From: a virus
Length of the DNA: 39,772 nt
Direction: 5' to 3' (one strand)
Virus record (IMG/VR): IMGVR_UViG_3300028394_000151
Span: 1 to 39,772 of that record
The position numbers and the translations under genes were made by a program. Shown one piece after another: positions 4,984-25,611 of this stretch. The notes beneath the pieces are model-generated. The model searched no databases and had not been told where the DNA came from. It worked only from the letters and a program-made list of their open reading frames with translations. Numbering within the stretch: the first letter of the stretch is position 1; each line of letters starts with the position of its first letter.

Positions 4984-5012
4984 TTGAGGCGGGTTGCTTA
5001 TGATTGTATCAT
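4984..5012 (+). promoter_or_regulatory. Promoter of the packaging/structural operon, leaderless start
   Basis: TTGAGG (4984-4989), a 17-base spacer, TATCAT (5007-5012), then exactly 6 bases to GTG 5019. This is the best-formed of the leaderless-type promoters, with both hexamers, and probably drives the terminase genes. Confidence 0.62.
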
Positions 5013-5018
5013 GGAGGC

Positions 5019-5189
5019 GTGGACGAAGAAGACTTCTATGGTTGGTCAGAGTGGGTCTTTCGATGCGTCTTTGAAGATTCTGGGCGGCGTGTTATGCGTG
5101 TCTTTGCGGCGTGCGAGTATGATGCGTGGGTAACATTTACTTTGATGACTGGCATACAAGTTAATCTTGACGGATTGGAGCATTGGTGA
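5019..5189 (+). CDS. Small hypothetical protein upstream of terminase
   Basis: 56 residues from GTG 5019. The start was chosen because it lies exactly 6 bases after TATCAT with a matching -35; the GGAGG one base before it is too close to act as a Shine-Dalgarno. The sequence is acidic at the N-terminus and then alternates aromatic and strand-forming residues (WVFRCVFED, WVTFTLMTG), reading as a small beta-sheet protein. The stop overlaps the small terminase GTG (GTGA). No known family. Confidence 0.55.
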   Translation: MDEEDFYGWSEWVFRCVFEDSGRRVMRVFAACEYDAWVTFTLMTGIQVNLDGLEHW

Positions 5190-5737
5190 CGAAACGCGCA
5201 GACCTTAAAGAAGCTCGTGACGATAAGAAGTCTCTAGAGGACTCGTACGGGCTTGTGTCGGATGATTTTTTGGTGAAGAATTATATGCCGACTCGTACTA
5301 TTGGCGAATTATCTGATGAGCAGATGGATGAGGCTATTGAGATGGCTCGACTCGGCGCGTTTGAAAAAGCGATTGCCAGGGTGCTAGGCGTTAATGAGGC
5401 TGTGTTCTTGTCTGCTTTAAAGAAAGGTAAGGATGGGAAGACGGGGCATAATGGTACAAGTCAGAAGCGCGTGGATTTTGCTAAACGCTTTTATGATGCA
5501 CGCAAAGAACACATGAAGAAAAGCCTGCGCGTAATTAGTGAGGCTGCTGATGAGGGTGATTGGAAGCCAGCAGCTTGGCAACTAGAACGCTCTTTTGGGT
5601 TTGTAAAGAACGAGACGGTCGAGGTAGAGGCTGGGCCGCAAATCATGTCGCTTATGCAGCTCGCACAGATTCCGTTAGAGCAAGCCCAAGCAACACTCCA
5701 GGTTGAGGGCGAAGTAGTTGTAGAACCAGATGAGTGA
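5186..5737 (+). CDS. terS: Terminase small subunit (probable)
   Basis: 183 residues from GTG 5186, which overlaps the previous stop; a TTG one codon upstream is the alternative. A helix-turn-helix-like segment lies around residues 60-85 (AFEKAIARVLGVNEAVFL), followed by a basic region and long helices, as expected for a small terminase that binds the packaging site and assembles into a ring. The acidic C-terminus could contact the large subunit. Identification rests mainly on position directly before the clear large terminase, which it overlaps by 8 bases, and on the HTH-plus-helix layout. Sequence similarity in this family is always weak. Confidence 0.68.
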   Translation: MTKRADLKEARDDKKSLEDSYGLVSDDFLVKNYMPTRTIGELSDEQMDEAIEMARLGAFEKAIARVLGVNEAVFLSALKKGKDGKTGHNGTSQKRVDFAKRFYDARKEHMKKSLRVISEAADEGDWKPAAWQLERSFGFVKNETVEVEAGPQIMSLMQLAQIPLEQAQATLQVEGEVVVEPDE

Positions 5738-7316
5738 CGAGTCGCTTAGTGTAGAAACCGCGCGCCTACGCGCAAAAATGGCTGACCCAGTGTGGAAAGC
5801 CAAGAATCTTTTTGGTTTTGATCCGTGGTCTAAACAACAAGAAATCCTCAAAGCACTGCGTAAGAATAAGCGTGTAGCGGTTCGCTCCTGCCACGGAGTA
5901 GGCAAGACTGCCGTGGCTGCTACTGCTGTTCTCGACTTCATGACGGAAGGGCCATGTCGTGTAATCACCACTGCGCCGACATGGAGCCAGGTCGAGCAAC
6001 TACTCTGGCGCGAAATTAACGTACGACACTCTAAGATTCCGGGCGGTAAAGACGCTTTCGGCAAAATGTTCAAGTCAAGCCTTGAAGTACGCTCCGACTG
6101 GTTCGCAATGGGACTCTCGACTGACAAGCCAGAACGATTCCAGGGTCATCACGCGCCACGGATGATGCTAGTCGTAGACGAAGCGAGTGGTATTGACGAA
6201 GCTATCTACGAAGCAGCCGAAGGTTTCCTTACCGCCGACGAAGCTCGCGTGCTGTTGATTGGAAACCCGACTCGACCAGCGGGAACCTTCTACAAAGCCT
6301 TCCAGAAAGACTCTGGTTGGTACCCAGTACACATGAGTGCCTTTGATGCGCCGTGCTTTACGGGCGAAAAAGTTTCTAAAGAGGCAGAACGCGCGCTAAT
6401 TACGCAAGAATGGGTGCAGGACGCTAAGCAACAGTGGGGTGAGGACTCGTCTGCGTACAAGATTCGCGTCTTGGGCGAGTTTTCGGAGACTACAGGCCGC
6501 CAATACTTCCAATTTCTAGAAAAAATCGTGCCTATTGACGCTAAGAAGCGTGGTTTTGTGCGGGGAATGCCTGTTCCTGGTGGCAGAGTAGAGTTCTATG
6601 ACGACCACAAGGGCGGAATGCGCATGTGGGAACCACCCAAGACTGGCGTTGGGTACATTATCTTCGCGGATGTGGCAGGATCAGTGTCTTTTGACGAGTA
6701 TGAGCGGCGCGAAGCGCGTATCGGGTCGGGTGCGGGGTCGGATTACTCTGTAGCAGAAGTGCTACGCCAAGATACTGGCGAACAAGTAGCCGAAATCCGG
6801 TATCGAGCCGACGTAGACGAGTTTGCCGACGATCTTGCACGCCTGGGACGCTTATATAACGATGCGATCATCGCGGTGGAGCGTAACGGGCCGGGAACCG
6901 CCGTCCTAACCCAACTAAAGAACACTATGGGGTACCCGCGTATCTGGCGACCACGCAATCCGATTGGCGTAAAGACGCATATGGATCAAACGCTAGGTTG
7001 GAACACGACTAGTGCCACGCGACCCATCATGTTGAGCGCGCTACAGGCCGCTATTCGCGACGAACCGCACCGAATCAAGAGCGAAGCACTCATAGATGAG
7101 ATTCGCACGTTCGTATTTCGGGATCGGAATGGTAGGGAGCCTCGCCCAGAGGCAGATGAGGGTTGCCATGACGACTTGGTGATGGCTATGGGTGGTGCGC
7201 AGGCTGTGTGGCAACAAGAATGCACTACGCCTATTCGCCTTGCGGAGCGTCCAAAGGTTGAGCCGCAACCTAATCTTCAGAAGCGCGCGCCACGCTTTGT
7301 TATTGGGAAGCGTTAG
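5730..7316 (+). CDS. terL: Terminase large subunit (packaging ATPase-nuclease)
   Basis: 528 residues. It powers DNA translocation into the prohead and cuts the concatemer. Visible ATPase motifs: Walker A SCHGVGKT (residues 53-60), Walker B LVVDEA (147-152) and the coupling motif GNPTR (178-182). The RNase H-like nuclease domain follows: IIFADVAGS with Asp314, IAVERNGPG with Glu384, and GCHDDLVMA with Asp481/482 near the C-terminus. Length and motif spacing fit the family. The ATG overlaps the small subunit by 8 bases. It is followed by small virion genes rather than directly by the portal gene. Confidence 0.95.
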   Translation: MSDESLSVETARLRAKMADPVWKAKNLFGFDPWSKQQEILKALRKNKRVAVRSCHGVGKTAVAATAVLDFMTEGPCRVITTAPTWSQVEQLLWREINVRHSKIPGGKDAFGKMFKSSLEVRSDWFAMGLSTDKPERFQGHHAPRMMLVVDEASGIDEAIYEAAEGFLTADEARVLLIGNPTRPAGTFYKAFQKDSGWYPVHMSAFDAPCFTGEKVSKEAERALITQEWVQDAKQQWGEDSSAYKIRVLGEFSETTGRQYFQFLEKIVPIDAKKRGFVRGMPVPGGRVEFYDDHKGGMRMWEPPKTGVGYIIFADVAGSVSFDEYERREARIGSGAGSDYSVAEVLRQDTGEQVAEIRYRADVDEFADDLARLGRLYNDAIIAVERNGPGTAVLTQLKNTMGYPRIWRPRNPIGVKTHMDQTLGWNTTSATRPIMLSALQAAIRDEPHRIKSEALIDEIRTFVFRDRNGREPRPEADEGCHDDLVMAMGGAQAVWQQECTTPIRLAERPKVEPQPNLQKRAPRFVIGKR

Positions 7317-7317
7317 A

Positions 7318-7323
7318 TATAGT
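7318..7323 (+). promoter_or_regulatory. Leaderless-type -10 box TATAGT
   Basis: TATAGT followed by exactly 6 bases and ATG 7330; no Shine-Dalgarno is present. No convincing -35 box. Confidence 0.5.
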
Positions 7324-7329
7324 TATTGT

Positions 7330-7653
7330 ATGAGCGAGTTTAGTCCTCCAGCCGGTGCGCGCAGCGCAGCTCGTCGCGGCTTAGAACTTGTAAAGGCAGG
7401 CAAAGCTGGTGGTGGCTTTGAACCCGCTACTGCTGCTCGCGCGCGGAAGATCGTTGCTGGCGATCCGCTTACGCGCGATGGTGTTATGCGTATGCACTCA
7501 TTCTTTAGTCGTCACGCAGTAGATCGCAAGCCCGACTGGGGTAAGAGTGGTAAGGAAACGCCTGGTTACGTGTCGTGGCAAACGTGGGGCGGGGACGCTG
7601 GCGCGTCATGGTCGGCGCGTCTTGCAAACAAACTTAGAGAATCCGCTAAGTAA
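7330..7653 (+). CDS. Small virion-region protein of a widespread phage type
   Basis: 107 residues. The middle and C-terminal part (ARARKIVAGDPLTRDGVMRM, then HAVDRKPDWG, SWQTWGGDAGASWSARL) matches a motif I recall from head-region proteins of many phages: ARDIANG..LS...VRRM.SFFARHEVD...WGGD.G..W. The function of that unit is not established; it occurs near portal, protease or capsid genes. Start chosen at ATG 7330, 6 bases after TATAGT; there is no Shine-Dalgarno. It directly follows the large terminase. Confidence 0.7.
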   Translation: MSEFSPPAGARSAARRGLELVKAGKAGGGFEPATAARARKIVAGDPLTRDGVMRMHSFFSRHAVDRKPDWGKSGKETPGYVSWQTWGGDAGASWSARLANKLRESAK

Positions 7654-7655
7654 GG

Positions 7656-7661
7656 TATAGT
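7656..7661 (+). promoter_or_regulatory. Leaderless-type -10 box TATAGT
   Basis: AAGG-like context then TATAGT, 6 bases, GTG 7668. Same hexamer and spacing as at 7318. Confidence 0.52.
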
Positions 7662-7667
7662 TCTGCT

Positions 7668-7823
7668 GTGAACAAAAAAGGTAAATACGCAAAGCTTGTC
7701 GCATCGCTGCAAGCTAAGGGCGCTAAAGACCCTCGCGCGCTTGCCGCAAGCATTGGTCGCAAGAAACTAGGTAAGGCAGAGTTTCAGCGTCGCGCTGCTG
7801 CCGGTCGAGCCGCAGCAGACTAA
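7668..7823 (+). CDS. Small basic protein of a recurring phage family (51 aa)
   Basis: GTG start 6 bases after TATAGT; no Shine-Dalgarno. The 51 residues include KYAKLVASLQAKGAKDPRAL followed by AASIGRKKLGK, a pattern (KYxxLxxxLxxKGxKDPxALAAxIGRKKxG) I recall from small proteins in many metagenomic and cultured phages. It is rich in Lys, Arg and Ala and probably binds nucleic acid or is packaged in the virion; its function is not known to me. Confidence 0.65.
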   Translation: MNKKGKYAKLVASLQAKGAKDPRALAASIGRKKLGKAEFQRRAAAGRAAAD

Positions 7824-7829
7824 GTAAGG

Positions 7830-7835
7830 TACACT
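7830..7835 (+). promoter_or_regulatory. Leaderless-type -10 box TACACT
   Basis: AAGG-TACACT, 6 bases, ATG 7842. Same arrangement as at 7656 and 24288. Confidence 0.5.
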
Positions 7836-7841
7836 TTTCCC

Positions 7842-7994
7842 ATGCCAAACTTTCAAAAAGACCCCAATAATCCTAAAGCAGACTTTTTTAACACTGCTAT
7901 TGGTGGAGCGCCAAAAAGTCCAGGCGGCAATAAGGTGCCTAAGATGAGCAAGCTTGCTTACAAGCTCAAGTCTAAGGCTATGGAAAAGAAATAG
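7842..7994 (+). CDS. Small basic hypothetical protein (50 aa)
   Basis: 50 residues, ATG 7842 placed 6 bases after TACACT, without Shine-Dalgarno. Asn/Pro/Lys-rich N-terminus, a glycine-proline hinge (GGAPKSPGGNKVPK), then a lysine-rich helix at the C-terminus. It lies in a row of three small basic genes behind the large terminase. No function can be assigned. Confidence 0.58.
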   Translation: MPNFQKDPNNPKADFFNTAIGGAPKSPGGNKVPKMSKLAYKLKSKAMEKK

Positions 7995-7999
7995 TTTTA

Positions 8000-8326
8000 A
8001 TGCATTCGCTTGACCGCATTAAGAAGAAGAACGAGCCGACCGTTAGCATCGCGCTAATGAAAATGAAACCCAAGTCGCAGTACGCCGAACCAAAAGAAGA
8101 CATGCCAATGGACATGACTAGAGACGCAATGGAAGAAGAAGCACCCATGCGTGAAGAAGCCAGCAAAGACTCGTACGAAGAATGCCCGAAGTGCGCCAAG
8201 TACCAGATGCTAATTGGCGAAGCTATCGCGTACTACATGCAGAACAAAGAAGACTCTGAAGATAAGCCTGACACGCGCGAAGTAGAAGACGAAATTAACG
8301 CGCAAGCAGATTCGATGCAGGACTAA
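8000..8326 (+). CDS. Acidic hypothetical protein
   Basis: 108 residues. A short basic N-terminus is followed by Met-rich and strongly acidic stretches (EPKEDMPMDMTRDAMEEEAP), then a CPKC pair and an acidic C-terminal helix. Low complexity suggests a flexible, perhaps scaffolding-like or chaperone-binding protein. The ATG lies 5 bases after the previous stop with no clear ribosome-binding site. Codons are mostly A- or C-ending. Confidence 0.55.
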   Translation: MHSLDRIKKKNEPTVSIALMKMKPKSQYAEPKEDMPMDMTRDAMEEEAPMREEASKDSYEECPKCAKYQMLIGEAIAYYMQNKEDSEDKPDTREVEDEINAQADSMQD

Positions 8327-8330
8327 CTGC

Positions 8331-8336
8331 TACACT
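8331..8336 (+). promoter_or_regulatory. Leaderless-type extended -10 box TGC-TACACT
   Basis: TG-n-TACACT, then 7 bases to ATG 8344. The TGn extension could compensate for the missing -35. Confidence 0.52.
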
Positions 8337-8343
8337 AATTCGT

Positions 8344-8724
8344 ATGAGCGTACCTCCGAACATGATGGGCGCAGGCCCAATGATCCCACCGCCACCAATG
8401 GGCGCACCAATGGGAATGCCAATGGCACCCCCCGCACCAGGCGGCCCTGTTCCCCCAGCGGTAGCTGCCCTTCCGGGCATGGCTGAACTTGCGCAGGCAC
8501 AGACGATGCAGATGGCGGATCATCAGCGTCAGATGCAGGCGATGCAGCAAGAGATGCAGAATCAGATCATGATGCTTATTGCTTCGCTGCCTACGCCGAA
8601 TCCTGCTGGTGAGGCTGCTGTGTCTACGCCGATGACTCCGATGATGAGTGGTGCTGGTGCTGGCATGGGTGATTCTGCCGCTCCGGGTGCCGCTGACATG
8701 GGAACCCCAACGGGTGCCTACTAA
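8344..8724 (+). CDS. Met/Pro/Gly-rich hypothetical protein
   Basis: 126 residues. The N-terminal 40 are Pro-Met-Gly repeats (MGAPMGMPMAPPAPGG), followed by a Gln/Met-rich helix (residues about 50-80) and a Gly/Ala-rich C-terminus. The helix could form a coiled-coil oligomer with disordered ends, as in minor virion or scaffold-associated proteins. The gene switches from C/A-rich to G/T-rich codons about one third of the way in. Start supported by TACACT 7 bases upstream. Confidence 0.55.
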   Translation: MSVPPNMMGAGPMIPPPPMGAPMGMPMAPPAPGGPVPPAVAALPGMAELAQAQTMQMADHQRQMQAMQQEMQNQIMMLIASLPTPNPAGEAAVSTPMTPMMSGAGAGMGDSAAPGAADMGTPTGAY

Positions 8725-8995
8725 CAGTTTTAGTCAAAACGACGAGGCTGTTATTGCCCCGTACACTAGGGGTGTTGCGGTAACTCCAAGCGACACTACT
8801 GATTTGGTAGAAGTTTCTCGCGCGCTAAACGTGCATAAGTCGGGTGGGCAATCCCACACTACCGTTAAATGTATTCTTTCTGGCGATACTGTTGCGGTAA
8901 GTTTAGTTTTGACAATTGGAGATGTTGTTCCAATTCGTGTTTCTCGCGTATACGCAACCGGGACAGACGCAACTACTGTTGTCGCTCTCTACTGA
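8714..8995 (+). CDS. Small virion-region beta protein of a recurring phage type
   Basis: 93 residues from GTG 8714, overlapping the previous gene by 11 bases. The pattern DLVEVSRALNVHKSG...TVKCILSGDTV...VPIRVSRVYATGTDATT ending in VVALY matches a short all-beta phage protein I recall (LP.VTRALYVGGAG...LPIRV.RV.ATGTTAT.IVALY), present in many phage structural clusters. It is thought to be structural, perhaps a spike or decoration trimer; the exact role is not established. Confidence 0.62.
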   Translation: MPTNSFSQNDEAVIAPYTRGVAVTPSDTTDLVEVSRALNVHKSGGQSHTTVKCILSGDTVAVSLVLTIGDVVPIRVSRVYATGTDATTVVALY

Positions 8996-9001
8996 TAGAC
9001 T
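8996..9001 (+). promoter_or_regulatory. Leaderless-type extended -10 box TGA-TAGACT
   Basis: TG-n-TAGACT, 6 bases, ATG 9008. Overlaps the end of the preceding gene; no Shine-Dalgarno for the next gene. Confidence 0.52.
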
Positions 9002-9007
9002 CTAAGA

Positions 9008-11146: not shown

Positions 11147-11157
11147 ACACGAACTGA

Positions 11158-11163
11158 TACACT
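11158..11163 (+). promoter_or_regulatory. Leaderless-type extended -10 box TGA-TACACT
   Basis: TG-n-TACACT, 7 bases, ATG 11171. Same extended box as at 8331. It lies in the 24-base gap after the propeller gene. Confidence 0.55.
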
Positions 11164-11170
11164 CACACTA

Positions 11171-11683
11171 ATGGCATACACTCGACCATACGCAAGCGGA
11201 TTCGTAGACTATCCGCTCACCACCACACCAATCAATAGCACCGCGCTCAACACTATTGATGTTGGCGTAAAAACAGTTAGTGATACTGTGGACGGGTTTA
11301 CTGGTGCGTGGACAGCTTACGTTCCGGCGCTGACTAATACAACTTCGCCTATTACGGTTGCTCGATACGCGAAGATTGGCAAGATTGTTCACTTCTATGT
11401 TGTGTTGACGCTTACGGGTGCGCAGGTAACGGGACTCCCAGGAATTGCGCTTCCTCCGTTTGCAATGCTTAGCACAAGCTCTGGCAACTTTGACGTAAAA
11501 ATGATTGACTCTGGAACCGTGTACGCTGGCGTTGGAGTCGCTGGTACAACTGCAAGGCTTGATTGTTACGCGCTTAACGCTGCCGGAACATACGCAGTTG
11601 TTACCGCCACAACCAGTCTTATCCCGTTTACGTGGGGAGCCGCAGACCAGATCATTGTAAGCGGAACATACGAGTCTGCATAA
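11171..11683 (+). CDS. Fibre-like/minor virion protein
   Basis: 170 residues. The N-terminal segment (YASGFVDYPLTTTPINSTAL, then NTIDVGV) resembles N-termini I recall from phage fibre-type proteins, and the rest is beta-rich with a Gly/Thr-rich C-terminal sandwich ending IIVSGTYES. No enzymatic motif. ATG 11171 has no Shine-Dalgarno and lies 7 bases after TACACT. The first 110 bases use A/C-ending codons, then composition shifts to T/G. It directly precedes and overlaps the portal gene (TAATG). Confidence 0.55.
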   Translation: MAYTRPYASGFVDYPLTTTPINSTALNTIDVGVKTVSDTVDGFTGAWTAYVPALTNTTSPITVARYAKIGKIVHFYVVLTLTGAQVTGLPGIALPPFAMLSTSSGNFDVKMIDSGTVYAGVGVAGTTARLDCYALNAAGTYAVVTATTSLIPFTWGAADQIIVSGTYESA

Positions 11684-13422
11684 TGATCGAGTCCACCGAC
11701 CCGAAAAAACTACTAGACCGATTCACAAAGTGCTGGGGACAATCCTACGCTAAGCACACGCAGAATTGCGAGTTCTACAAGAAGTGTGACGACGGATATA
11801 ATGCTGTCATCAAGCCATCTAGTAGTGAGTGGCAATCTGATTTGCATCCTCCGTATGCTTTGCAGATTATTGACATTATTGAATCCAACATTGTTGATGA
11901 CCAGCCTGACATGCGCGTTGTCCCGGCACAACCAGACGACAGTGATGGTGCGGAACTATTGACGCACATTATTCGCCAGCAACGCTACAAGGATAACTTT
12001 CCTGAGAAGTACGCTTTGTTTGTGAAGCAGTCTCTTATTCGCGGCATTAGCGTGGCAAAGATTCCGTGGATGGAAGAATGGCGCAAAGTCCCCACACCAA
12101 ACTACAAGCCTGATCCGCTCGGACAGCGCCAGCCGTACCAGAATGTTCCGTACCGCCAACAGCCAGGATTCGTCAACGTAGACACTAATCACTTTTTGTG
12201 GGACGTTAACGCTACAAGTCTTGACGATGCTGAGTACGTGTTCTTTCGCACGTACGAATCTAAGCGTAGCCTTGAGGCTGCTGGCGTGTACGACAACCTA
12301 GACAAGATTGAAGTGCAGACAACGCACATTGGCTTGGACGAGAAAGAGCGTCGTGGTCGAGTAGAAGTAATTGAGTGGTGGTGGCGCGATGGCGCGTCTA
12401 TGCGCCTTACTGTGATTGCTAACAAGTCTACGATTATTCGTGATTGCATTAGCCCGTTTTGGCATGGACAGTTCCCGTTTGTGGTGGCGAACGTGATGCC
12501 GACCCCGTTCTCGTTTCGTGGTAAGAGCATTGTTGAGATCATTAGTGATTTGCAGATTGCCTTGTGGGAGCTACAGAATCAGCGCATTGACAACTCTAAG
12601 TTCATGGCTAACGCCGCTATGTTTGTTGACCCGAACACGGATCAGCAAGACATTCGCCTCTACCCAGGAGCCGTCATCCCGCTTCGCCCCGACCAAGTAC
12701 AAGCGTGGGTGCCTAACATTAGTATTCTCCAGCCGTCCGTGCAGGCTGAGGAGATGCTGAAAGGCGACTTGCAGAACATTACGGGTGCTGTTGGTTACTT
12801 GTCTGGTGCTTCTGGCACGGAGATTGACCAGACTACCGCGACTGGCATTAGTGTTATTAGCAACATGGCTGCTAAGCGCATTATTCGTATGAAGCAGCAG
12901 ATTATGTTTGCTATGCGGCGTGCTGGTGAGCAGCAGATTGCGCTTAATCAGCAGCTTCTACCCGGCCCGATTGCTGTTCGTATTGATCGTGACGCGGCTG
13001 AGGATTGGAAGATGGTTAGCCCTACTGACATTCAGGGACAGTACGACTATAAGGTTGAGGATGCAAACGAGTCGCTAATGCGGCAGGAGCGTCGAGCAGA
13101 GTCGCTCGCGTTTGCTAACTGGTTTGGTCAGAATTACGCTTTGCTCGTCCAGTCCGGGGTACAGCCGAACATGCGGCGTGTAGCTGAGGATGTTATTCAG
13201 GCATTCGATGAAGACCCGAAAGAGTATTTGGGTAATGATCCTTCTTCGCCGGACGGCACACAAGTGCAGAACCCGCTCTTGGTCGGAGGGCCGGGTCAGT
13301 CACAGCCGGGGGCGACAACCCCATTTGGCGGTGCTGCTAGTTCTGGTATGACCCCCGGGTTGCCGCCTGAACTCGCTGCGCTTTTCGGGGCCGTCCCCGG
13401 CGCTAATCCCTCTCAACCATAG
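11683..13422 (+). CDS. Portal protein
   Basis: 579 residues from ATG 11683 (TAATG overlap). Position between terminase and scaffold/capsid genes, size, and the segments YALQIIDIIESNIVDDQPDM, LFVKQSLIRGISVAKIPW and GKSIVEIISDLQIALWEL fit the family of dodecameric portal proteins of short-tailed phages through which DNA enters and leaves the head. A long helix rich in Arg, Gln and Met near residues 390-430 (RIIRMKQQIMFAMRRAGEQQ) corresponds to the crown/stem side helices. The C-terminus is Gly/Pro-rich and probably disordered. Confidence 0.85.
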   Translation: MIESTDPKKLLDRFTKCWGQSYAKHTQNCEFYKKCDDGYNAVIKPSSSEWQSDLHPPYALQIIDIIESNIVDDQPDMRVVPAQPDDSDGAELLTHIIRQQRYKDNFPEKYALFVKQSLIRGISVAKIPWMEEWRKVPTPNYKPDPLGQRQPYQNVPYRQQPGFVNVDTNHFLWDVNATSLDDAEYVFFRTYESKRSLEAAGVYDNLDKIEVQTTHIGLDEKERRGRVEVIEWWWRDGASMRLTVIANKSTIIRDCISPFWHGQFPFVVANVMPTPFSFRGKSIVEIISDLQIALWELQNQRIDNSKFMANAAMFVDPNTDQQDIRLYPGAVIPLRPDQVQAWVPNISILQPSVQAEEMLKGDLQNITGAVGYLSGASGTEIDQTTATGISVISNMAAKRIIRMKQQIMFAMRRAGEQQIALNQQLLPGPIAVRIDRDAAEDWKMVSPTDIQGQYDYKVEDANESLMRQERRAESLAFANWFGQNYALLVQSGVQPNMRRVAEDVIQAFDEDPKEYLGNDPSSPDGTQVQNPLLVGGPGQSQPGATTPFGGAASSGMTPGLPPELAALFGAVPGANPSQP

Positions 13423-13426
13423 TTAT

Positions 13427-13449
13427 CCGACCAAACCGACCTTCCGACC
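13427..13449. repeat. Three CCGACC repeats in the scaffold gene leader
   Basis: CCGACC at 13427, 13436 and 13444, directly before the GGAGG (13450-13454) and ATG 13459. The same hexamer recurs after the scaffold gene (14357, 14385, with ACGACC at 14366) and before the gene after the capsid gene (15694). Confidence 0.6.
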
Positions 13450-13458
13450 GGAGGAACA

Positions 13459-14352
13459 ATGAGCAGTAACGATACGACAACAGAAACCGATCCGATTGCT
13501 GACGCGATCCTACATGGCGGGAACGTGCCGCCAGCTCCAGAGGTAAATTCTGGTGCAGATGTTGAACCGGAATCTGGTGCAGATATTGCAGTAGAAGAAG
13601 AACTCTTGCTTGGCAAGTTTAAAACGTCTGAAGACATGGCGGCTGCGTACCAGAACCTAGAACGCGAGTTCACACAAGCCCGTCAGCGCGCCATTGACCT
13701 TGAGTCTTTGCTCGACGACGAGCCAGACGAGGTTGCCCCCGCGTGGAACTCCGCGTTTACTGGCGCTAACCCGCAGAACGAAACTGAGCTTGTTAGTTGG
13801 GCCGAAAGTAACCCTGGCGCTGCCGCACAGTGGGCTATTTCTAATGGTGAGCGTGTTGGTCAGGACACTGTTACGGCTTTGTGGGAGCATTGGTTTGAGG
13901 TCAAGCCGACTGAGGCTATGGCGTGGTACACAACGCAGCAGACGCAGACAATTGCTTCGCAATACGAGGGTCGCATTGCAGAGTTGCAGGAGCAGATTGC
14001 TCCGTTGCGCGATCAGCAGACGCAGGCTCTTTTTGAGTCTAGTCTCGATTCGCTAGAGGGTCAGATTCCCGATCTTGCTGATTATAGTGAGAAAATCCAG
14101 GCGTATATTGACAATATTCCTACGGATCAGCTTCACTTGGCGTTCTTTCCGCAGGGCATGGACACGCCAGAGAAGATTCAGGAGGGCGTTAAGAGCTTGT
14201 ATGCGATTGTTCGTATGCGAGAGACACCTTTGCAGTCCCTACAGCAGGGTAGTGTTAATCAGAATGCGTTTACGCAGTCTCGTCAAGGCGTTGCCGACAA
14301 TGGGCCTGTGGATTACGATGCTAAGATTAATGCTGCTATCCTTCAAGGGTAG
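13459..14352 (+). CDS. Scaffolding protein
   Basis: 297 residues, acidic, with a disordered Asp/Glu-rich N-terminus, then helical heptad-like stretches (TSEDMAAAYQNLEREFTQAR and IAELQEQIAPLRDQQTQALF) typical of scaffolds that direct capsid assembly and then leave the prohead. The segment GKFKTSEDMAAAYQNLE is a pattern I recall from scaffold proteins of podoviruses. It lies between portal and capsid genes, as usual. Unlike most genes here it has a full Shine-Dalgarno (GGAGG, 4 bases before ATG), fitting strong expression. Confidence 0.82.
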   Translation: MSSNDTTTETDPIADAILHGGNVPPAPEVNSGADVEPESGADIAVEEELLLGKFKTSEDMAAAYQNLEREFTQARQRAIDLESLLDDEPDEVAPAWNSAFTGANPQNETELVSWAESNPGAAAQWAISNGERVGQDTVTALWEHWFEVKPTEAMAWYTTQQTQTIASQYEGRIAELQEQIAPLRDQQTQALFESSLDSLEGQIPDLADYSEKIQAYIDNIPTDQLHLAFFPQGMDTPEKIQEGVKSLYAIVRMRETPLQSLQQGSVNQNAFTQSRQGVADNGPVDYDAKINAAILQG

Positions 14353-14356
14353 AGAG

Positions 14357-14390
14357 CCGACCAGTACGACCATCGTGGCCCAACCCGACC
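14357..14390. repeat. CCGACC-type repeats before the capsid gene
   Basis: CCGACC at 14357 and 14385 and ACGACC at 14366, in the 96-base leader between scaffold and capsid genes. See the similar cluster at 13427. Confidence 0.5.
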
Positions 14391-14448
14391 GTTGGACAAC
14401 CGCAAACCATCATCCATCATCTAGTTAGAAAGGTTAGGTTACAATTTA

Positions 14449-15636
14449 ATGCCTACCATCCTTACTGGGGTAGTTGACGACGCGGATATTCTGTCCAATC
14501 AGCGCGTCGTTGATATGTCCCCCACCATCGCACAGCTTGAGCCTGATGAGGCTCCGCTCACGACGATGCTCCAGAAGACGAGTAAGCGCGCAGCTTTCTC
14601 GCAGAAGGTCGAATGGTTGTCGGACGAACTTGTCCCACGCCTCACAACTCTTTCCGCTTCGGCAACCTCCTCCGCTACGGCGCTGTCGGTTGCTACTGGC
14701 ACTGGCACGTACTTTCGCCCTGGCGACGTTGTTCGTATTGCGTCCACTGGTGAGAACTGTGCCGTTAGCGCCGTGTCTGCCGACACGGTGTATCTTGTTA
14801 GTCGTGCGCTTGGTCAGTCGGCTGTTTCGCCGCTTCCCAGTGCGATTACGAGTGTTTCCGCTGCAAGCGGCGTTGACCTGATTAAGGTCGGCAATGCTGC
14901 TGCTGAGGGCGCAACTCTTGGTACGCTCATTCAGACCAAGAAGGTTGCTAACTACAACTACGCACAGATTCAGCGTGACCCGTGGGGCTTTACAAACACG
15001 TTGGTCGCGTCGAAGCTGTACGGCGGCCCGGAGCCTGCTAACGAGGCTAAGAAGAAGCTGATCGAGCATAAGCGCCAGATGGAGAACACTCTGTTCTGGG
15101 GCGTGCGCGATCTGGTCACGACTGGTTCGGCTCCGATTGGTTACGTCGGCGGCCTGTACCAGTACATCCAGTCCAACCTGACGGCTAGCGTTGGTTCGCT
15201 CACAGAGGCAATCTTTGAGACGTTCCTCCGCAAGGCGTTCCGTTACGGTTCGCAGAACAAGGTTATGTTCTGCTCGCCACTCGTCGCTTCGGCGCTGTCG
15301 AGCTTCCCGCAGGGTAAGCTTGCTCCGCCGTCCCCGTCGATTGACACGTACGGCGTGTCGCTGAGCAAGTATCAGTCTGCTTCCGGTGCAATGGTTGACA
15401 TTGCTATCAAGCGCGACTGGTACGACTTTGCGTCTACTGGAAACCAGTACGGCGGCATTGGTGTCGTTGTGGACATGGACGACATTACGATGCGTCCTCT
15501 CCGCGATACGGTGCTGAAGCCGGATCGTCAGGCGAACGATGAGGACTCCATTAAGCAGGAGTACCTCACCGAGTGGTCGCTTGAGATCGGCCTTGAGAAG
15601 AAGCACGCTATCATCTCTGGCATTACCGGCTACTAA
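14449..15636 (+). CDS. Major capsid protein, SU10/DUF5309-like
   Basis: 395 residues, forming the HK97-fold head shell. The N-terminus (TGVVDDADILSNQRVVDMSP) is followed by an E-loop-like segment with AFSQKVEWLSDELVPR, an inserted beta domain, then YAQIQRDPWGFT, KKKLIEHKRQMENTLFWG and a C-terminal SLEIGLEKKHAIISGITGY, as in the SU10-type capsid family (DUF5309). The 96-base leader carries AGAAAGG about 15 bases upstream and CCGACC repeats. A 13-bp hairpin follows the stop. Codon use is the most uniform in the window, consistent with high expression. Confidence 0.88.
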   Translation: MPTILTGVVDDADILSNQRVVDMSPTIAQLEPDEAPLTTMLQKTSKRAAFSQKVEWLSDELVPRLTTLSASATSSATALSVATGTGTYFRPGDVVRIASTGENCAVSAVSADTVYLVSRALGQSAVSPLPSAITSVSAASGVDLIKVGNAAAEGATLGTLIQTKKVANYNYAQIQRDPWGFTNTLVASKLYGGPEPANEAKKKLIEHKRQMENTLFWGVRDLVTTGSAPIGYVGGLYQYIQSNLTASVGSLTEAIFETFLRKAFRYGSQNKVMFCSPLVASALSSFPQGKLAPPSPSIDTYGVSLSKYQSASGAMVDIAIKRDWYDFASTGNQYGGIGVVVDMDDITMRPLRDTVLKPDRQANDEDSIKQEYLTEWSLEIGLEKKHAIISGITGY

Positions 15637-15646
15637 GCCAACAAGT

Positions 15647-15680
15647 CTGGGAGAGCCGCTAATACTGGCGGCTCTCCCAG
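15647..15680 (+). terminator. 13-bp stem-loop after the capsid gene
   Basis: CTGGGAGAGCCGC (15647-15659), 8-base loop, GCGGCTCTCCCAG (15668-15680): a perfect 13-bp stem. No T-run follows, so partial termination or 3'-end protection of the capsid mRNA is more likely than full termination. Confidence 0.75.
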
Positions 15681-15710
15681 CACGACTTTCCTACCGACCA
15701 GGAGCAACAA

Positions 15711-16355: not shown

Positions 16356-16357
16356 TA

Positions 16358-17926
16358 GTGCATAACGATATTGCGGCTCATAAGGCGAATGTTCTTCGTC
16401 ATGTGACTGTTGTGATGCCGTGGGGTGGCGAGAAGGAGCATTTGTTAAGGGATGCTATCCGCTCGTTGCCTCGCGGCATTCGTTTTGTTATTGCCAAGAA
16501 TGCGGGTAAGCATGAAATGGCTACTGCGTTTAATGCGGCTATAGAAAGTGTACGTACAAAGTACACCTTTATTATGGGTGCTGATGATTTGATTGATTCT
16601 AAGACGCTGTGGCGATTGTGGGAAGCAGCTATTGGTGCGGATGGTGCGTATCCGTGGATGCTTGTGTTTGGTGATAAACGTTATCGAATGCTTGCTGAGC
16701 CGTGGTGTCCTCGCCGCCTGCAAGACGCAAACTTGTGTGGCGTAATGCTTGTCAAAACTGACGCTATTCGTAGTGTTGGTGGGTATCGTGATGTTCCGAT
16801 TGAGGATTGGGATATGACGTATCGGCTGGGGCAGGCTGGTTACAGGTTGAATCCCGCTCCGCTTGCGCGTTACGGGTATCGTCAGCAGCACGACGGGTTG
16901 CATCGTTCTACAATTCGCGAAGCAAATAAGCTTGGTATGGACTGGCCCGACCTAGCGCCTTATGAGACGCGCGTAGAGGTGCCTGCCGTGTTCTACGAGT
17001 GGAGACTTGATGGAACGGGTTACGTGCGCTCCGAACTTGCCTCGCGCACCACAAAGAGCGTTGTGCGTACAAGTCTTGACCAGCGCGATCAGCACCAGGC
17101 TAAGTCGTGGGTGTTTCAGTATCCAAACTCTGATGCGCAAGAGTTTTGGGACATAGCAAAAAGGCTAGGCAAACGCCGCATTGTGGATGTTGACGATAAT
17201 TATGTGTCTCCAGAATTAGAGCAAGTTGTGCGCGAGTTTCACCCAGAGAATGCTGATAGGTGGGCGGAGCGCCAAGAATCGCACAAACAGATGGTTCGCG
17301 AAGCTGACGGGGTTATTTGTGCAACCTTTGCTTTGGCTGACGTATACCAAGAGTTAAACAAGAACATTATCGTTTGTGAGAACACGGTTGATCCGTCTGA
17401 TTGGAATTATTCTTCGTCAAAGAAGAAGATAGTTGGCGTTGTGTTGTCTCAGAATCACCTTAAAGACATTCCGCTAGTAGAAGAAGCGTGTCGAGCAGCG
17501 TCAAAGATGAAGGGAGTTGAGGTACAGGTTGTTGGTCTTGACCCGGACTGGGACTTCTCGTACACAAGCTTTGGTTTTACTCCTAGCATCTCGTCGTATC
17601 GTCGTGTCTTGTCTAGGTGGAGCATTGGTCTTGCGCCGGTTATTGACAATGATGTGACTCGTTGCAAGAGCGACCTGAAGTGGTTGGAGTTTACGATGAG
17701 TAAGGCTGTGCTTGTAGCAAGCGACTCTGAAGCGTATAAGCGTGTGCCGGATGATTGCATTATGCGCGCCACAAACGCACAAGAGTTCAAAGATCGGGTT
17801 GTTTCGTTGTTGCGTGACGAGTCTAGGCGTAAACAATTGTTGCGCGCTTCTACGTTGCACGTAAAACAAAACCGGCTTGTTGGCAATGAGTCGTTGCGGA
17901 ACAGGTACAATACACTATTAGTATGA
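16358..17926 (+). CDS. Two-domain glycosyltransferase (GT-A plus GT-B) in the virion operon
   Basis: 522 residues from GTG 16358, two bases after the previous stop. The N-terminal domain is GT2-like: VTVVMPWGG strand, AFNAAIE helix, GADD (74-77) as the metal/nucleotide-binding acidic motif, GGYRDVPIEDWDMTYRL (141-157) as the acceptor-side ED motif. From about residue 200 a second domain is GT-B-like, ending with CKSDLKWLEFTMSKAVLVAS, the nucleotide-sugar-binding helix signature of GT1/GT4-type enzymes. It would transfer sugars, perhaps two different ones, to a protein or wall polymer. Position among head and tail genes suggests virion glycosylation; that is inference. Confidence 0.78.
   Translation: MHNDIAAHKANVLRHVTVVMPWGGEKEHLLRDAIRSLPRGIRFVIAKNAGKHEMATAFNAAIESVRTKYTFIMGADDLIDSKTLWRLWEAAIGADGAYPWMLVFGDKRYRMLAEPWCPRRLQDANLCGVMLVKTDAIRSVGGYRDVPIEDWDMTYRLGQAGYRLNPAPLARYGYRQQHDGLHRSTIREANKLGMDWPDLAPYETRVEVPAVFYEWRLDGTGYVRSELASRTTKSVVRTSLDQRDQHQAKSWVFQYPNSDAQEFWDIAKRLGKRRIVDVDDNYVSPELEQVVREFHPENADRWAERQESHKQMVREADGVICATFALADVYQELNKNIIVCENTVDPSDWNYSSSKKKIVGVVLSQNHLKDIPLVEEACRAASKMKGVEVQVVGLDPDWDFSYTSFGFTPSISSYRRVLSRWSIGLAPVIDNDVTRCKSDLKWLEFTMSKAVLVASDSEAYKRVPDDCIMRATNAQEFKDRVVSLLRDESRRKQLLRASTLHVKQNRLVGNESLRNRYNTLLV
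17911..17916 (+). promoter_or_regulatory. Leaderless-type -10 box TACACT
   Basis: TACACT, 6 bases, ATG 17923, within the end of the glycosyltransferase gene. An overlapping TACAAT lies at 17906-17911. Confidence 0.5.
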
Positions 17927-21067: not shown

Positions 21068-22674
21068 TGGCTAAGGACTTGGAAGCTCCTAAGCCGTTTG
21101 TTCCTAGTGGTTTTGTTGATGGGAATAAGTTGGATGCGGGTGGCATTGAGCAGATGCGGTTTGGTTTGGCTGGTTCGGGGCCGCTTGCTAAGGCTGTGCT
21201 TGATTCTAATGCGGTTGGTACCATGAGGCAGCTTGTTGGTGGTGGCGCTACGCCGACTACGACTATTCCGGTGGGTACAATTAGTCCGTATGCGGGTACG
21301 TCTGCTCCTGCTAACTGGTTGTTGTGTGACGGTGCGGCTGTTAGTCGAGCGACGTATGCCGCTTTGTTTGATGTTACGGGTACGGCGTATGGTGTTGGTG
21401 ATGGTTCTACGACGTTTAATGTTCCTGATCTTCGTGGTCGTGTTGTTGCTGGTAAAGACAACATGGGCGGGACTACGGCTAGCCGTCTTACTGCTGCGGG
21501 TTCTGGCATTACTGGAACTACTCTTGGTAATGCTGGTGGTACTGAAACACATACGCTTACGGAAGCGCAACTTGCTGTGCATACGCATATACAGAACGCT
21601 CATACACATACGTCTAATGCTGGCGAGGGGTCTGGGTCTGGAGCCACAAGGGACACGGCGTATGGCGGCGGCGATGGATACAAAGCAACTTACTATACGC
21701 CCGGTTTATCTATCAACAACCAAACAGCAACTAATCAAAATGCTGGTAGCGGTCTAGCTCATCAAAATACGCAACCGACAATTATCACAAGTTACATTAT
21801 TAAGGCTGTTGCTGATGTTACAAATACGTTTGGCGTAGCTCTTAGTGGTGCTGCCGGTGGAGTTCTAAAAGGAACCTACCCAAACCCAACATTCTCAAGC
21901 GTTACCGTAAACGCAAGTGGTGGAACGCTATCTTCTTATACTGACTATACGGGCGCAACGTTTAATGTGCATACCTTTACAACTGTAGGTGCAACAAACT
22001 TTGTTGTCACTGCGGCTGGAACGGTTAGCGTACTTGTTGTCGCTGGTGGAGGGGGCGGCGGCTGGGACGTTGGCGGTGGTGGTGGAGCCGGAGGCTTTAT
22101 TTTAAGAAACGCTTTTGCTGTTACGCCACAAACATATGTTGTAACCGTTGGGGCAGGAGGCGCTGGTGCCACAGGCGGTACTATTTCTTCTGCTAATGAT
22201 GGTGGTAACTCGGTATTTAGTTCGCTTACTGCTATTGGCGGCGGTGGTGGCGGTGCTTATCCAAGCGCGAATGGTCGGAGTGGTGGTTCTGGTGGTGGTG
22301 GTGTTGGGTATACAACTACTTCTAGTCCGGGTGAAGGTACTTATGAGCAGGGCTTTGCTGGTGGCGCGTCGCAACGTAACCTAACAACAACAAGCGGTAA
22401 TTTAACGGCTTCTGGCGGTGGTGGAGCCGCGGGTTCTGGCGCTCCGGGAGCGTTGGTAAGTGCTGCTTATGTTAGTGGTGGGCCGGGTAGGTATTGCGAC
22501 ATAACTGGTGTTGATACGCTTTACGCCAGTGGTGGTCGTGGGGCGCAGGATTCTTGGAGTGGTGGGGCCGCATCTGTTGTTAGTAGTGGTAATGGTGGCG
22601 ATGGTGGTGGCACTACAAATACGGGTTTTGCGGGTGCTGCCGGTATTGTTGTAATTCGTTATAGGACTAATTAA
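21067..22674 (+). CDS. Tail fibre with collar domain and glycine-rich adhesin domain
   Basis: 535 residues from GTG 21067, overlapping the previous stop. Residues about 80-160 form a phage tail collar domain (ISPYAGTSAPANWLLCDGAA, FNVPDLRGRVVAGKDNMGG) followed by a His/Thr-rich stretch (HTHIQNAHTH) that in other fibres binds metal ions along the shaft. From about residue 300 a long Gly-rich domain (VLVVAGGGGGG, GGGGGAYPS, ending GIVVIRYRTN) resembles polyglycine-helix adhesins at fibre tips. It is the strongest host-recognition candidate here. Confidence 0.82.
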   Translation: MAKDLEAPKPFVPSGFVDGNKLDAGGIEQMRFGLAGSGPLAKAVLDSNAVGTMRQLVGGGATPTTTIPVGTISPYAGTSAPANWLLCDGAAVSRATYAALFDVTGTAYGVGDGSTTFNVPDLRGRVVAGKDNMGGTTASRLTAAGSGITGTTLGNAGGTETHTLTEAQLAVHTHIQNAHTHTSNAGEGSGSGATRDTAYGGGDGYKATYYTPGLSINNQTATNQNAGSGLAHQNTQPTIITSYIIKAVADVTNTFGVALSGAAGGVLKGTYPNPTFSSVTVNASGGTLSSYTDYTGATFNVHTFTTVGATNFVVTAAGTVSVLVVAGGGGGGWDVGGGGGAGGFILRNAFAVTPQTYVVTVGAGGAGATGGTISSANDGGNSVFSSLTAIGGGGGGAYPSANGRSGGSGGGGVGYTTTSSPGEGTYEQGFAGGASQRNLTTTSGNLTASGGGGAAGSGAPGALVSAAYVSGGPGRYCDITGVDTLYASGGRGAQDSWSGGAASVVSSGNGGDGGGTTNTGFAGAAGIVVIRYRTN

Positions 22675-22725
22675 TGATTATCCGCGCCATAAACAACAAA
22701 CGTCCTAAGCCGACCGCCTCGTAGG

Positions 22726-22731
22726 TATACT
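22726..22731 (+). promoter_or_regulatory. Leaderless-type -10 box TATACT
   Basis: TATACT, 6 bases, GTG 22738, in the 63-base gap after the fibre gene. Probably starts transcription of the internal virion protein genes. Confidence 0.55.
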
Positions 22732-22737
22732 AATACT

Positions 22738-22998
22738 GTGACCTCCACGCTCTACGCACCACAACGAGTCAACTACAAACCAACAATGCCTGCCGGACTA
22801 CCCGCAAGCATTGACCCACGCAAAGTCCTGCTCGAATCCTTGAAGAAGCTAGGCGATAAGAAGACGACTGGGATTATGAATCAGTCGCCTGCTGCTGTGA
22901 TGGGTGCGCTTACGAATCCTGGTGATGTTGGTAGTGGGATGAAGGGTAGTATTCTTGGTGGCGTTGAGTCTCGCGCGCGAATGATGGGTGGCAACTAG
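22738..22998 (+). CDS. Small virion-associated hypothetical protein
   Basis: 86 residues from GTG 22738, 6 bases after TATACT, no Shine-Dalgarno. Basic and helix-forming in the middle (LLESLKKLGDKKTTG), Gly/Met-rich at the end. The first 110 bases use C/A-ending codons and the rest T/G-ending codons, a sharp switch within one short gene. It is coupled to the next gene by a TAGTG overlap. It is probably a minor internal protein, judged only by position. Confidence 0.55.
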   Translation: MTSTLYAPQRVNYKPTMPAGLPASIDPRKVLLESLKKLGDKKTTGIMNQSPAAVMGALTNPGDVGSGMKGSILGGVESRARMMGGN

Positions 22999-24278
22999 TG
23001 GCTGCGTCTACTCTTAAGATTCCAAAGGCACCAGTTGTCAAGCCTATTGCTAAGGGTACTTCCACAAGTAAACCTGACGCTCCTAAAACTACTGTTACGC
23101 CTAAGAATCTTTCCGCGACGCTTCCAAAAAAAGCTACTCTTTACCAGCGTTACACCGACCCAATTACGGGTGCTAAGTACCAGTATGTTAATGGTGCCTG
23201 GAAGATGACGAGTGGTGCTACTGGCATTGCTCTTGGTCGGCTTCCCCTTACAACTCCTAAGCTCACTGGTTCGGAGTCTACTGGTAGCACCATTGCCACA
23301 CCACCAACTCCGCCACCAACGCCTGCCCCTCGCGCTCCATTTAACTATGCTGACGCTTATTATGCGTACCCCGGCTATGGCGAAAGCCTTATGGGTATTA
23401 ACGCGCAGCAGGGCGGCATTGAGTCTAAGTACGGGTTTACCATTCGTCGAGACACAAGCACTACTTCTCCAACTCGTGGCGGCGCGTACTACAAGCCAAA
23501 GGGTGCCGATGAAGGCACAGGAACTATCTTGGCAACGATCAGTCCTGTTGACGGAACGTATGTGTACAAGGACGCTGAAGGCAAGACTTACTCTGCTGCT
23601 GATCTTGAAATTGACGTTGTAACCCTTAAGCCCGGTGATCCGAATTATCTTAAAGGCGCGTTTGGCGCTACTGCGGCAACAAGTAATCTTAATCTTCGCA
23701 AACTAGGCGATGCTGCCGCGCAAAGCGGCGTGGGTAGTAGTGGTATTCGCGCGTCTATGGTTACGCAAGAAGACGCGGCTCGTGCTGCTCGCGAATTTGA
23801 CTTGACAGCGCAAGCTGGCGCTGATCTTGGTGCCACGACCGCTAAGTACGCTGAGCTTTACCGCACCATCTTTGACGCAATTAAGGGTCAAGCTGCTGAT
23901 TATAATGCTGTCCCACCGCCTGTTGTCGAACCGCCTGCTGCTGTAACTCCTGATGCGCCTGCTGCTGTTATTCCCGATGCGGCTGCGCCAAATACTAACC
24001 CAAATACGCAGACGGGTCTTGTTAATGGGCAGGCTCTTAGTAGTGGGCCTGAGGGCCAGTTTATGGGTCAGGCTAATGCGATTGTTGCGCAGCGTGATGC
24101 GCCGTATTCTTCAATTAAGACTTCGTTGTTAGGGTTGAAGCGGTTTAATTTGACTCCGCAGCAGATTCGTTGGATTGATGATTGGATTAAGAATAATGTT
24201 CCTAAGCCGTTGAGTCCTGCGCAGAAGAAGGTTGTTGCTGATGCTAAGGCTAAGATTGCTAAGGGCAAGGGCAAGTAA
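22998..24278 (+). CDS. Internal virion protein (Pro/Ala-rich)
   Basis: 426 residues from GTG 22998 (TAGTG overlap). N-terminal Lys/Pro/Thr-rich linker, a Pro-rich hinge at about 95-115 (TPPPTPAPRAPF), a helical middle (TQEDAARAAREFDLTAQAGA), another Pro/Ala-rich linker, and a basic helical C-terminus (KVVADAKAKIAKGKGK). Alternating disordered linkers and helices, plus location before the giant ejection protein, fit a protein stored in the head or tail and ejected with the DNA. No catalytic motif. Confidence 0.58.
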   Translation: MAASTLKIPKAPVVKPIAKGTSTSKPDAPKTTVTPKNLSATLPKKATLYQRYTDPITGAKYQYVNGAWKMTSGATGIALGRLPLTTPKLTGSESTGSTIATPPTPPPTPAPRAPFNYADAYYAYPGYGESLMGINAQQGGIESKYGFTIRRDTSTTSPTRGGAYYKPKGADEGTGTILATISPVDGTYVYKDAEGKTYSAADLEIDVVTLKPGDPNYLKGAFGATAATSNLNLRKLGDAAAQSGVGSSGIRASMVTQEDAARAAREFDLTAQAGADLGATTAKYAELYRTIFDAIKGQAADYNAVPPPVVEPPAAVTPDAPAAVIPDAAAPNTNPNTQTGLVNGQALSSGPEGQFMGQANAIVAQRDAPYSSIKTSLLGLKRFNLTPQQIRWIDDWIKNNVPKPLSPAQKKVVADAKAKIAKGKGK

Positions 24279-24287
24279 TGGGTAAGG

Positions 24288-24293
24288 TAGACT
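24288..24293 (+). promoter_or_regulatory. Leaderless-type -10 box TAGACT
   Basis: AAGG-TAGACT, 6 bases, ATG 24300, in the 21-base gap. Same context as at 7830. Confidence 0.52.
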
Positions 24294-24299
24294 AGACCT

Positions 24300-25574
24300 A
24301 TGCCACAGTTTGTTAAGCCTCCTGCCGGTTCCCCTGAAAGTGGTGCTATATATGTAAACACTGCTACTGGTGGGAAGAAACCAAAGCCAAAGCCAAAAGA
24401 AGACAAAAACAATAGTGGTAGTGGTTCCGCGCCCTCTGCGCCTGCCGCAACTGGGCTAACTGCTGCCGAAAAGAAAGCTGCGCGGGAAAAGAAAAGAGCC
24501 GAACAGAGGGCCGCCAATGCTGCGGCTAGGGCTAACAAGTACAATCCGCTTGTTACTAGGTACAAGTCTCCGGCAGAGTTGCGCGCAGAAGCAGCCGAAC
24601 TAGCCGCCCTTAGTGTTGCTAGTGAAGAATCTCTTAGAAGTCAGCAGGCCTTGCAAGAGACGGGCTTGACTGGTCTTAGTAACGCTCTTGGTAATCGCCT
24701 TGCTGGTTTGAACACTGAGTACCAGGCTACGCTTGGTGGTCTTGGTAGTGCGTATGGTCGGACTGCTGCGAATACTGCTGCGGCTACTAATGAGCAGCTT
24801 ATTGCTTCTGGTGCGCCGTCGAGCGTTGCGCCTGTTGCTGCTAATCCGATGCTTGGTAATACGATTGCGTTGCTTGGTGCTGTTCCTTCGCAGTACGCTG
24901 CGACTGCTGCTGCGACTGGTGCGCAGCTTGTTGGTGCTTCGCAGAATACTTTGTCTAAGGCGCTTACGGATCGTGCTAATACTGTTAGTGCTAATACGGC
25001 TAAGTACTTGTTGGCGTTGCGCGACACTGAGTACAATAAGGCTATTGCAAAGCTTACGGCTGAGCAGAACGCTACTCGTCTTGGTATTGATACGGAGTAC
25101 AAGGCTGGGATGCTTGGTGTTGCGCAGACTAATGCGCAGACTAAGATTGACCAATTGAATCGTCAGATTAAGAAGGACAATAAGGCTGGTAAGACGGCTG
25201 CGTCTACGATTAAGACTGTTCAGAGGGGGATTCTTGCTAATCCTAATACGTGGACTGAGCCTACTTATTCGTCTAATGATTACGAGTGGACGTTTGCGCT
25301 TGGTGAGGGCAAGACGGCTACTGGTATTGGGCCGGATAGGAACACCGCTATTAACAATGCGCGTAATTCTGGTTCTATGACCGCTGCTGATCTTGAGTTG
25401 AATAAGAATAATTCGGCGTGGGGTATCCAGGGCGACCCAGTTAAGGTTATTCCTAAGTACGCGGATGTTCAGGCCCAGCTTATGAGTATCCTTGTTAATG
25501 CTGGCATGGCACCAAAGAAGGCTAGTGCTTGGATTGCTACGTTTATGCCGGGTGTGGCTAGGTTGCCTCGTTAA
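24300..25574 (+). CDS. Internal virion protein (Ala-rich, helical)
   Basis: 424 residues. N-terminal segment with a lysine/proline repeat (KKPKPKPKED), then a basic Ala-rich helix (AEKKAAREKKRAEQRAANAA), and a long alpha-helical body with many Ala, Leu, Gln and Asn (residues 90-300). The C-terminus is a mixed globular region. Looks like an ejection-type or core protein that lies along packaged DNA. ATG 24300 is placed 6 bases after TAGACT; no Shine-Dalgarno. Confidence 0.58.
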   Translation: MPQFVKPPAGSPESGAIYVNTATGGKKPKPKPKEDKNNSGSGSAPSAPAATGLTAAEKKAAREKKRAEQRAANAAARANKYNPLVTRYKSPAELRAEAAELAALSVASEESLRSQQALQETGLTGLSNALGNRLAGLNTEYQATLGGLGSAYGRTAANTAAATNEQLIASGAPSSVAPVAANPMLGNTIALLGAVPSQYAATAAATGAQLVGASQNTLSKALTDRANTVSANTAKYLLALRDTEYNKAIAKLTAEQNATRLGIDTEYKAGMLGVAQTNAQTKIDQLNRQIKKDNKAGKTAASTIKTVQRGILANPNTWTEPTYSSNDYEWTFALGEGKTATGIGPDRNTAINNARNSGSMTAADLELNKNNSAWGIQGDPVKVIPKYADVQAQLMSILVNAGMAPKKASAWIATFMPGVARLPR

Positions 25575-25599
25575 GGGTTTGTGTTGCCGTATGAGTGCG

Positions 25600-25605
25600 T
25601 ATACT
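25600..25605 (+). promoter_or_regulatory. Leaderless-type -10 box TATACT
   Basis: TATACT, 6 bases, ATG 25612, in the 37-base gap before the giant virion protein gene. Same hexamer and spacing as at 22726. Confidence 0.55.
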
Positions 25606-25611
25606 GTGTAA

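Follow-up and report, generated by a model that had tools for sequence, protein, structure and literature searches.

A well-established hallmark of leaderless genes is a −10 box directly next to the start codon (PMC3160421, PMC12340547, PMC3890552). In Deinococcus radiodurans, experiments showed that the sequence TANNNT, found 6–7 bp before open reading frames (ORFs), functions as a −10 region (PMC12340547). In mycobacteria, leaderless translation requires ATG or GTG at the RNA 5′ end, and either suffices; TTG does not work (PMC4633059). Among phages, many middle and late genes of Thermus phage phiYS40 are predicted or reported to be leaderless (reviewed in PMC3594737). Another Thermus phage, P23-45, has extended −10 promoters for middle and late genes, with gp39 (reviewed in PMC7403470). 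Here, we describe an array of TANNNT boxes in a viral DNA of 39,772 bases (IMG/VR record IMGVR_UViG_3300028394_000151), the whole of which is hereafter called the window. The boxes sit 6 or 7 bases before the start codons of late genes. Very probably, they are sigma-A-type promoters without a −35 element, from which transcripts start at the start codon and each of which opens a small late unit.

Results

TANNNT boxes occur at a fixed distance from start codons

All called genes lie on one strand of the window, and every feature given below is on the + strand. We use spacing to mean the number of bases between a box and the start codon. An initial annotation of this DNA had listed eleven boxes. 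A check of the sequence found all of them, with spacings of 7 before genes 8344 and 11171 and 6 before the other nine. Using curated starts, TANNNT is found at spacing 6 in 9 of 38 window genes, and at spacing 7 in 2. With an upstream TANNNT rate of 0.015 per position, the count at spacing 6 corresponds to a binomial p of 4e-9. Because a reader could pick starts to fit boxes, the count was redone with each called gene assigned the start of its longest ORF. With this rule, which is free of the reader's choice, 6 of 47 window genes have a box at spacing 6, compared with a mean of 0.70 at other spacings (p 7e-5).

Related DNA was collected by a capsid scan of IMG/VR, which gave 28 related loci (L-numbers), mostly 79–98% identical. 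A second scan gave 5 more distant loci, and 12 parent records (G001–G012) were read at near full length. All nine of the relatives G001–G009 have their maximum at spacing 6 by the longest-ORF rule. Pooling the relatives gives 315 genes, of which 74 carry TANNNT at this spacing, against ~10 at a typical other offset. The peak is sharp at 6–7, with scarcely any excess at 5 or 8. A secondary peak at spacing 11 is owed at least partly to homologues of gene 17923. The offset is enriched over other positions in the window and, as the initial annotation had proposed to check, in related phages. The distant high-GC relatives G010 and G011 have no boxes. No peak was seen when TANNNT was counted before every ATG or GTG of the window; most such codons are not starts, so gene-based counts are needed. 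Scans for consensus −35/−10 promoters and for terminators gave little above shuffled sequence (promoters, 18 versus 16.1).

The boxes resemble −10 elements and outlast their surroundings

Across homologues the middle bases of the box differ (TATACT, TAGACT, TACACT, TATAGT, TAGAAT, TATTCT) but TA and the final T are constant. This is the pattern expected of a −10 element. The shared form first proposed, TAnACT or TATAGT, describes ten of the eleven window boxes and fails for gene 5019, which has TATCAT. As annotated, TGn precedes the boxes of genes 8344, 9008 and 11171. At 71 non-redundant sites, TGn is present only at some, G is preferred at −2 (59%) and −1 (50%), and there is no −35 signal or excess of TTGACA at any spacer.

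The first candidate −10 box, TATCAT (5007..5012), is 6 bases from GTG 5019, where a small gene opens the terminase unit. Homologues of this gene have TATCAT or TATCTT at spacing 6–7 in L005, L028, L002 and L023. TATAGT (7318..7323) lies at spacing 6 from ATG 7330; of 12 distinct homologous upstream regions, 8 have a box at 6 or 7, and both the box variants and the upstream DNA differ. The same hexamer at 7656..7661, with spacing 6 to GTG 7668, is kept in 11 of 12 such regions. For ATG 7842, TACACT (7830..7835, spacing 6) is kept in both of 2 distinct homologues. TACACT recurs at 8331..8336, preceded by TGc and at spacing 7 from ATG 8344, and is kept in 8 of 11 homologous upstream regions. TAGACT (8996..9001), preceded by TGa and at spacing 6 from ATG 9008, is kept in 7 of 11. 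The box heading the portal-gene unit, TACACT (11158..11163), also follows TGa; it has spacing 7 to ATG 11171 and is kept in 5 of 16 regions. TATACT (22726..22731, spacing 6 to GTG 22738) is kept in 9 of 10 homologous upstream regions despite differing flanks, and TAGACT (24288..24293, spacing 6 to ATG 24300) in 5 of 5. Finally, TATACT (25600..25605, spacing 6 to ATG 25612) is kept in each of 4 relatives, whose protein identity falls as low as 27%. Boxes therefore persist in diverged homologues whose neighbouring DNA was replaced.

The start codon as probable transcription start site

Each of the 11 boxed window genes starts with ATG or GTG. At spacing 6, boxes are enriched 5.9-fold before ATG and 6.0-fold before GTG, compared with 0.9-fold before TTG and 1.6-fold before CTG. 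This restriction matches the mycobacterial rule for leaderless start codons. The same codon bias would arise if RNA polymerase preferred a purine at +1, yet this would also put the transcription start on the start codon.

The alternative that survives best, though we think it improbable, keeps the boxes as real promoters. Transcripts would start a few bases upstream or downstream, giving very short leaders, or the next in-frame start would be used. Indeed, the distance from −10 element to start site ranges from 3 to 11 nt in Corynebacterium glutamicum (PMC3890552). Gene 17923 also fits this alternative. The initial annotation assigned it TACACT (17911..17916), and this hexamer is present at spacing 6 from ATG 17923. 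However, the conserved box is another one: TACAAT (17906..17911), which shares one base with TACACT and has spacing 11, with a predicted leader of ~5 bases. TACAAT or TATACT is found at spacing 11 in most relatives. A box at 6 or 7 occurs in 2 of 9 homologous upstream regions, the spacing-6 TACACT is confined to close relatives, and another relative has TACCGT there. Hence, we rejected the spacing-6 TACACT as the main promoter of 17923; it is probably not the ancestral one. Across the array, conversely, the sharp peak at 6–7 and the dependence on ATG or GTG, not TTG, point to the start codon as the start site.

Boxes are confined to the late region

We defined a strict box as TANA[ACG]T and the late region as the 21.5 kb up to the giant protein gene. 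In the window and G001–G008, strict boxes precede 61 of 230 late-region genes and 0 of 157 genes elsewhere; these DNAs are related, so the counts are not independent events. The set had been described as genome-wide, which this distribution contradicts. The packaging and structural genes of the region suggest that it is expressed late.

Restriction to one module is what a dedicated late specificity would produce, and the boxes might be promoters read by an RNA polymerase or sigma factor that the phage encodes. We consider this very unlikely. No match to a single-subunit polymerase or to sigma region 4 was found in 13 records, although the polymerase search was weak and had no positive control. 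Moreover, TANNNT is the ordinary −10 consensus of hosts in Actinobacteria (PMC3160421, PMC3890552). A WhiB search also gave no match.

Boxed genes have weak Shine–Dalgarno sites

The absence of properly spaced Shine–Dalgarno sites, claimed at the outset, is borne out by duplex energies. The median is −2.4 kcal/mol for boxed genes versus −7.65 kcal/mol for unboxed genes with an intergenic gap. An intergenic gap precedes most boxed genes (9 of 10, Fisher p 0.008); the gaps measure 12–63 bases except at 17923, and several boxed genes are then followed by overlapping genes. Strong Shine–Dalgarno sites are present at gapped genes without a box, among them 13459, 15711, 32196 and 32963.

Since boxes replace Shine–Dalgarno sites within a one-strand gene array, the hexamer could in principle act within a single long late mRNA, as a translation signal or a site of RNA processing. 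The chance of this is slimmer still. The hexamer resembles a −10 element with an upstream G, and it favours genes after an intergenic gap. A translation enhancer should serve TTG starts too, yet these are unenriched. In addition, experiments in D. radiodurans support a promoter role for this motif (PMC12340547). As for chance, or a reader's selection of AT-containing hexamers with starts chosen to suit, starts 5019 and 7330 do differ from the longest-ORF start, but the idea is refuted by the offset controls, in which the longest-ORF rule retains the enrichment and the same peak appears in every one of G001–G009.

Other features of the window and its relatives

The terminase large subunit gene (5730..7316) has no box and overlaps the preceding gene; the portal protein gene (11683..13422) overlaps the boxed gene 11171. 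Two genes provide an internal contrast. The putative scaffold gene, so called from its position (13459..14352), has a strong Shine–Dalgarno sequence, GGAGG, and no box. The major capsid protein gene (14449..15636) has a 96-base intergenic leader, also without a box. The boxed gene starting at ATG 25612 encodes a giant virion-type protein of 1836 amino acids. Other genes of the window are tail genes and those for NlpC/P60 and CHAP lysins, SSB, a PD-(D/E)XK nuclease and a DNA methylase. A glycosyltransferase-like gene (16358–17926) sits among the virion genes and is kept in relatives.

The unboxed structural genes 13459, capsid and 15711 share CCGACC leader motifs (13430–13458, 14349–14395 and 15685–15710), which are also present in relatives. 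At 13459 and 15711 the motif adjoins the Shine–Dalgarno site. The capsid-gene leader (14375–14403) and the homologous leaders of L005–L025 contain a nearly invariant element, GTGGCCCAACCCGACCGTTGGACAACCGC. It can fold into a small hairpin, CCAAC/GTTGG within GTGG/CCGC, with one compensatory change in L024 and no Rfam match. An Rfam search of the window matched no family.

A tRNA-Leu (CAA) gene lies just before the terminase gene in several relatives (L017, 1144–1224; L024, 1286–1369; L037, 4509–4591) and is absent from the window. Contigs G003, G005, G007 and G008 have the gene order of the window and are cut at differing points, which suggests that the genomes are circularly permuted.

The likely host

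The closest families to the NlpC/P60 lysin are RipA, RipB and DIP1281, which belong to mycobacteria and corynebacteria. The protein encoded at 34237 resembles RecT-like proteins; among RecT-like phage records, 22 of 26 are from phages of Microbacterium, Propionibacterium, Rhodococcus or Streptomyces. Together with the synteny with Microbacterium phage Shocker described below, these homologies make an actinobacterial host likely. They support, but do not prove, the guess made in the initial annotation.

Discussion

A model for late gene expression

We consider leaderless expression, as first suggested from the geometry, to be the best explanation of the boxes. The boxes keep an exact, conserved offset from ATG or GTG starts and not from TTG, they outlast their flanks, G is favoured upstream and there is no −35 motif. 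In the model, each box would be the −10 element of a sigma-A-type promoter read by the host RNA polymerase. Such promoters would lack a −35 element and often have G one or two bases upstream of the box. RNA would start 6–7 bases downstream of the box, at the first base of the ATG or GTG, and the leader-free mRNA would be translated by leaderless initiation. Each promoter would open a short late transcription unit, giving about ten units of head and tail genes. Downstream genes overlap the previous stop codon and are probably translated by coupling or from an internal Shine–Dalgarno site.

Several observations weigh against this model. The box is missing in some homologues (11 of 16 for gene 11171; 4 of 12 for gene 7330). 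A short leader would result from the conserved box of 17923. A gap without a box precedes 10 of the 38 curated genes, so other start modes coexist. The distant relative G009 (63% capsid identity) has boxes outside the late region too (3 late, 3 elsewhere). Finally, a host search of genome contigs, using the capsid protein and a tRNA-Leu anticodon-arm pattern, gave no match.

More tentatively, the phage group may switch its mode of expression. Early and lysis genes would be led by Shine–Dalgarno sites, and the late module would consist of some ten separately promoted leaderless units. A phage factor might free the host polymerase from the −35 element or shift ribosomes to leaderless initiation. 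We regard this as a possibility, and a doubtful one.

The usual picture of late phage genes is a single long operon led by Shine–Dalgarno sites. Here, the late region appears to be split into many units, each beginning on its own start codon and kept through turnover of the neighbouring DNA. For this uncultured and probably actinobacterial phage group, the boxes allow promoters and start codons to be annotated precisely. We found no report of such an array in actinophages in the open-access full-text literature. Hence, although the leaderless mechanism is known, its use by this phage group, repeated and confined to late genes, appears to be unreported.

Comparison with known systems

The closest parallel is with TA-led leaderless genes of Actinobacteria and Deinococcus–Thermus (Zheng 2011, PMC3160421; PMC12340547; PMC4633059; PMC3890552). 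As in the window, the first T of TANNNT is ~12 bases before the start codon, which is ATG or GTG, there is no Shine–Dalgarno site and the −35 element is weak or absent. TACACT, found among the window boxes, is the commonest form in D. radiodurans. These are, however, host genes and mostly first in operons, whereas the window has about ten recurrences in a one-strand phage late array.

The Thermus phages share parts of the arrangement. With annotated starts, phiYS40 has a spacing-6 box in 9 of 59 genes and so shares the peak. Its host phylum and phage lineage differ, and leaderless ends and an IF2/IF3 shift are reported for it; late leaderless genes in the window are a prediction. The window offers a natural test of whether a phage can exploit leaderless translation specifically late, as proposed for phiYS40. 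P23-45 has later promoters that are independent of a −35 element, as those of the window may be, but it has 3 spacing-6 boxes in 91 genes. It also has gp39; none turned up in the window, where no fold-based homologue search was made.

Control phages had few spacing-6 boxes (T7, 0; phiC31, 0; Molivia, 1; Jasmine, 2; DS1, 1). HMO-2011, a structural-gene relative with an alphaproteobacterial host, has 1. The offset peak was not found in T7 or HMO-2011. In this small panel, HMO-2011 and most actinophages other than Shocker are without the pattern, so the array is not general to actinophages or to this capsid type.

Shocker (MW507126) is the exception. Using annotated starts, its 66 genes include 5 with boxes at spacing 6 and 1 at spacing 7 (p 2e-4). 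Four of the six are in late genes, one of them before the giant protein (gene 37, TAAAGT at 6). Its terminase, portal, capsid, tail genes, giant protein and lysin follow one another in an order similar to that of the window. Distant homology extends to its portal protein, gene 32 and gene 37, with weak matches to the window portal, 18306 and 25612; its capsid and terminase have no detectable similarity to those of the window. The idea, raised by position, that 22738 is the homologue of a boxed small gene in Shocker and DS1 was discarded, as homology was not evident from the sequences. Shocker differs in its GC content of 63%, in that most of its late genes are Shine–Dalgarno led and in its late boxes, mainly TAGGAT. 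As an isolated phage, it allows direct testing.

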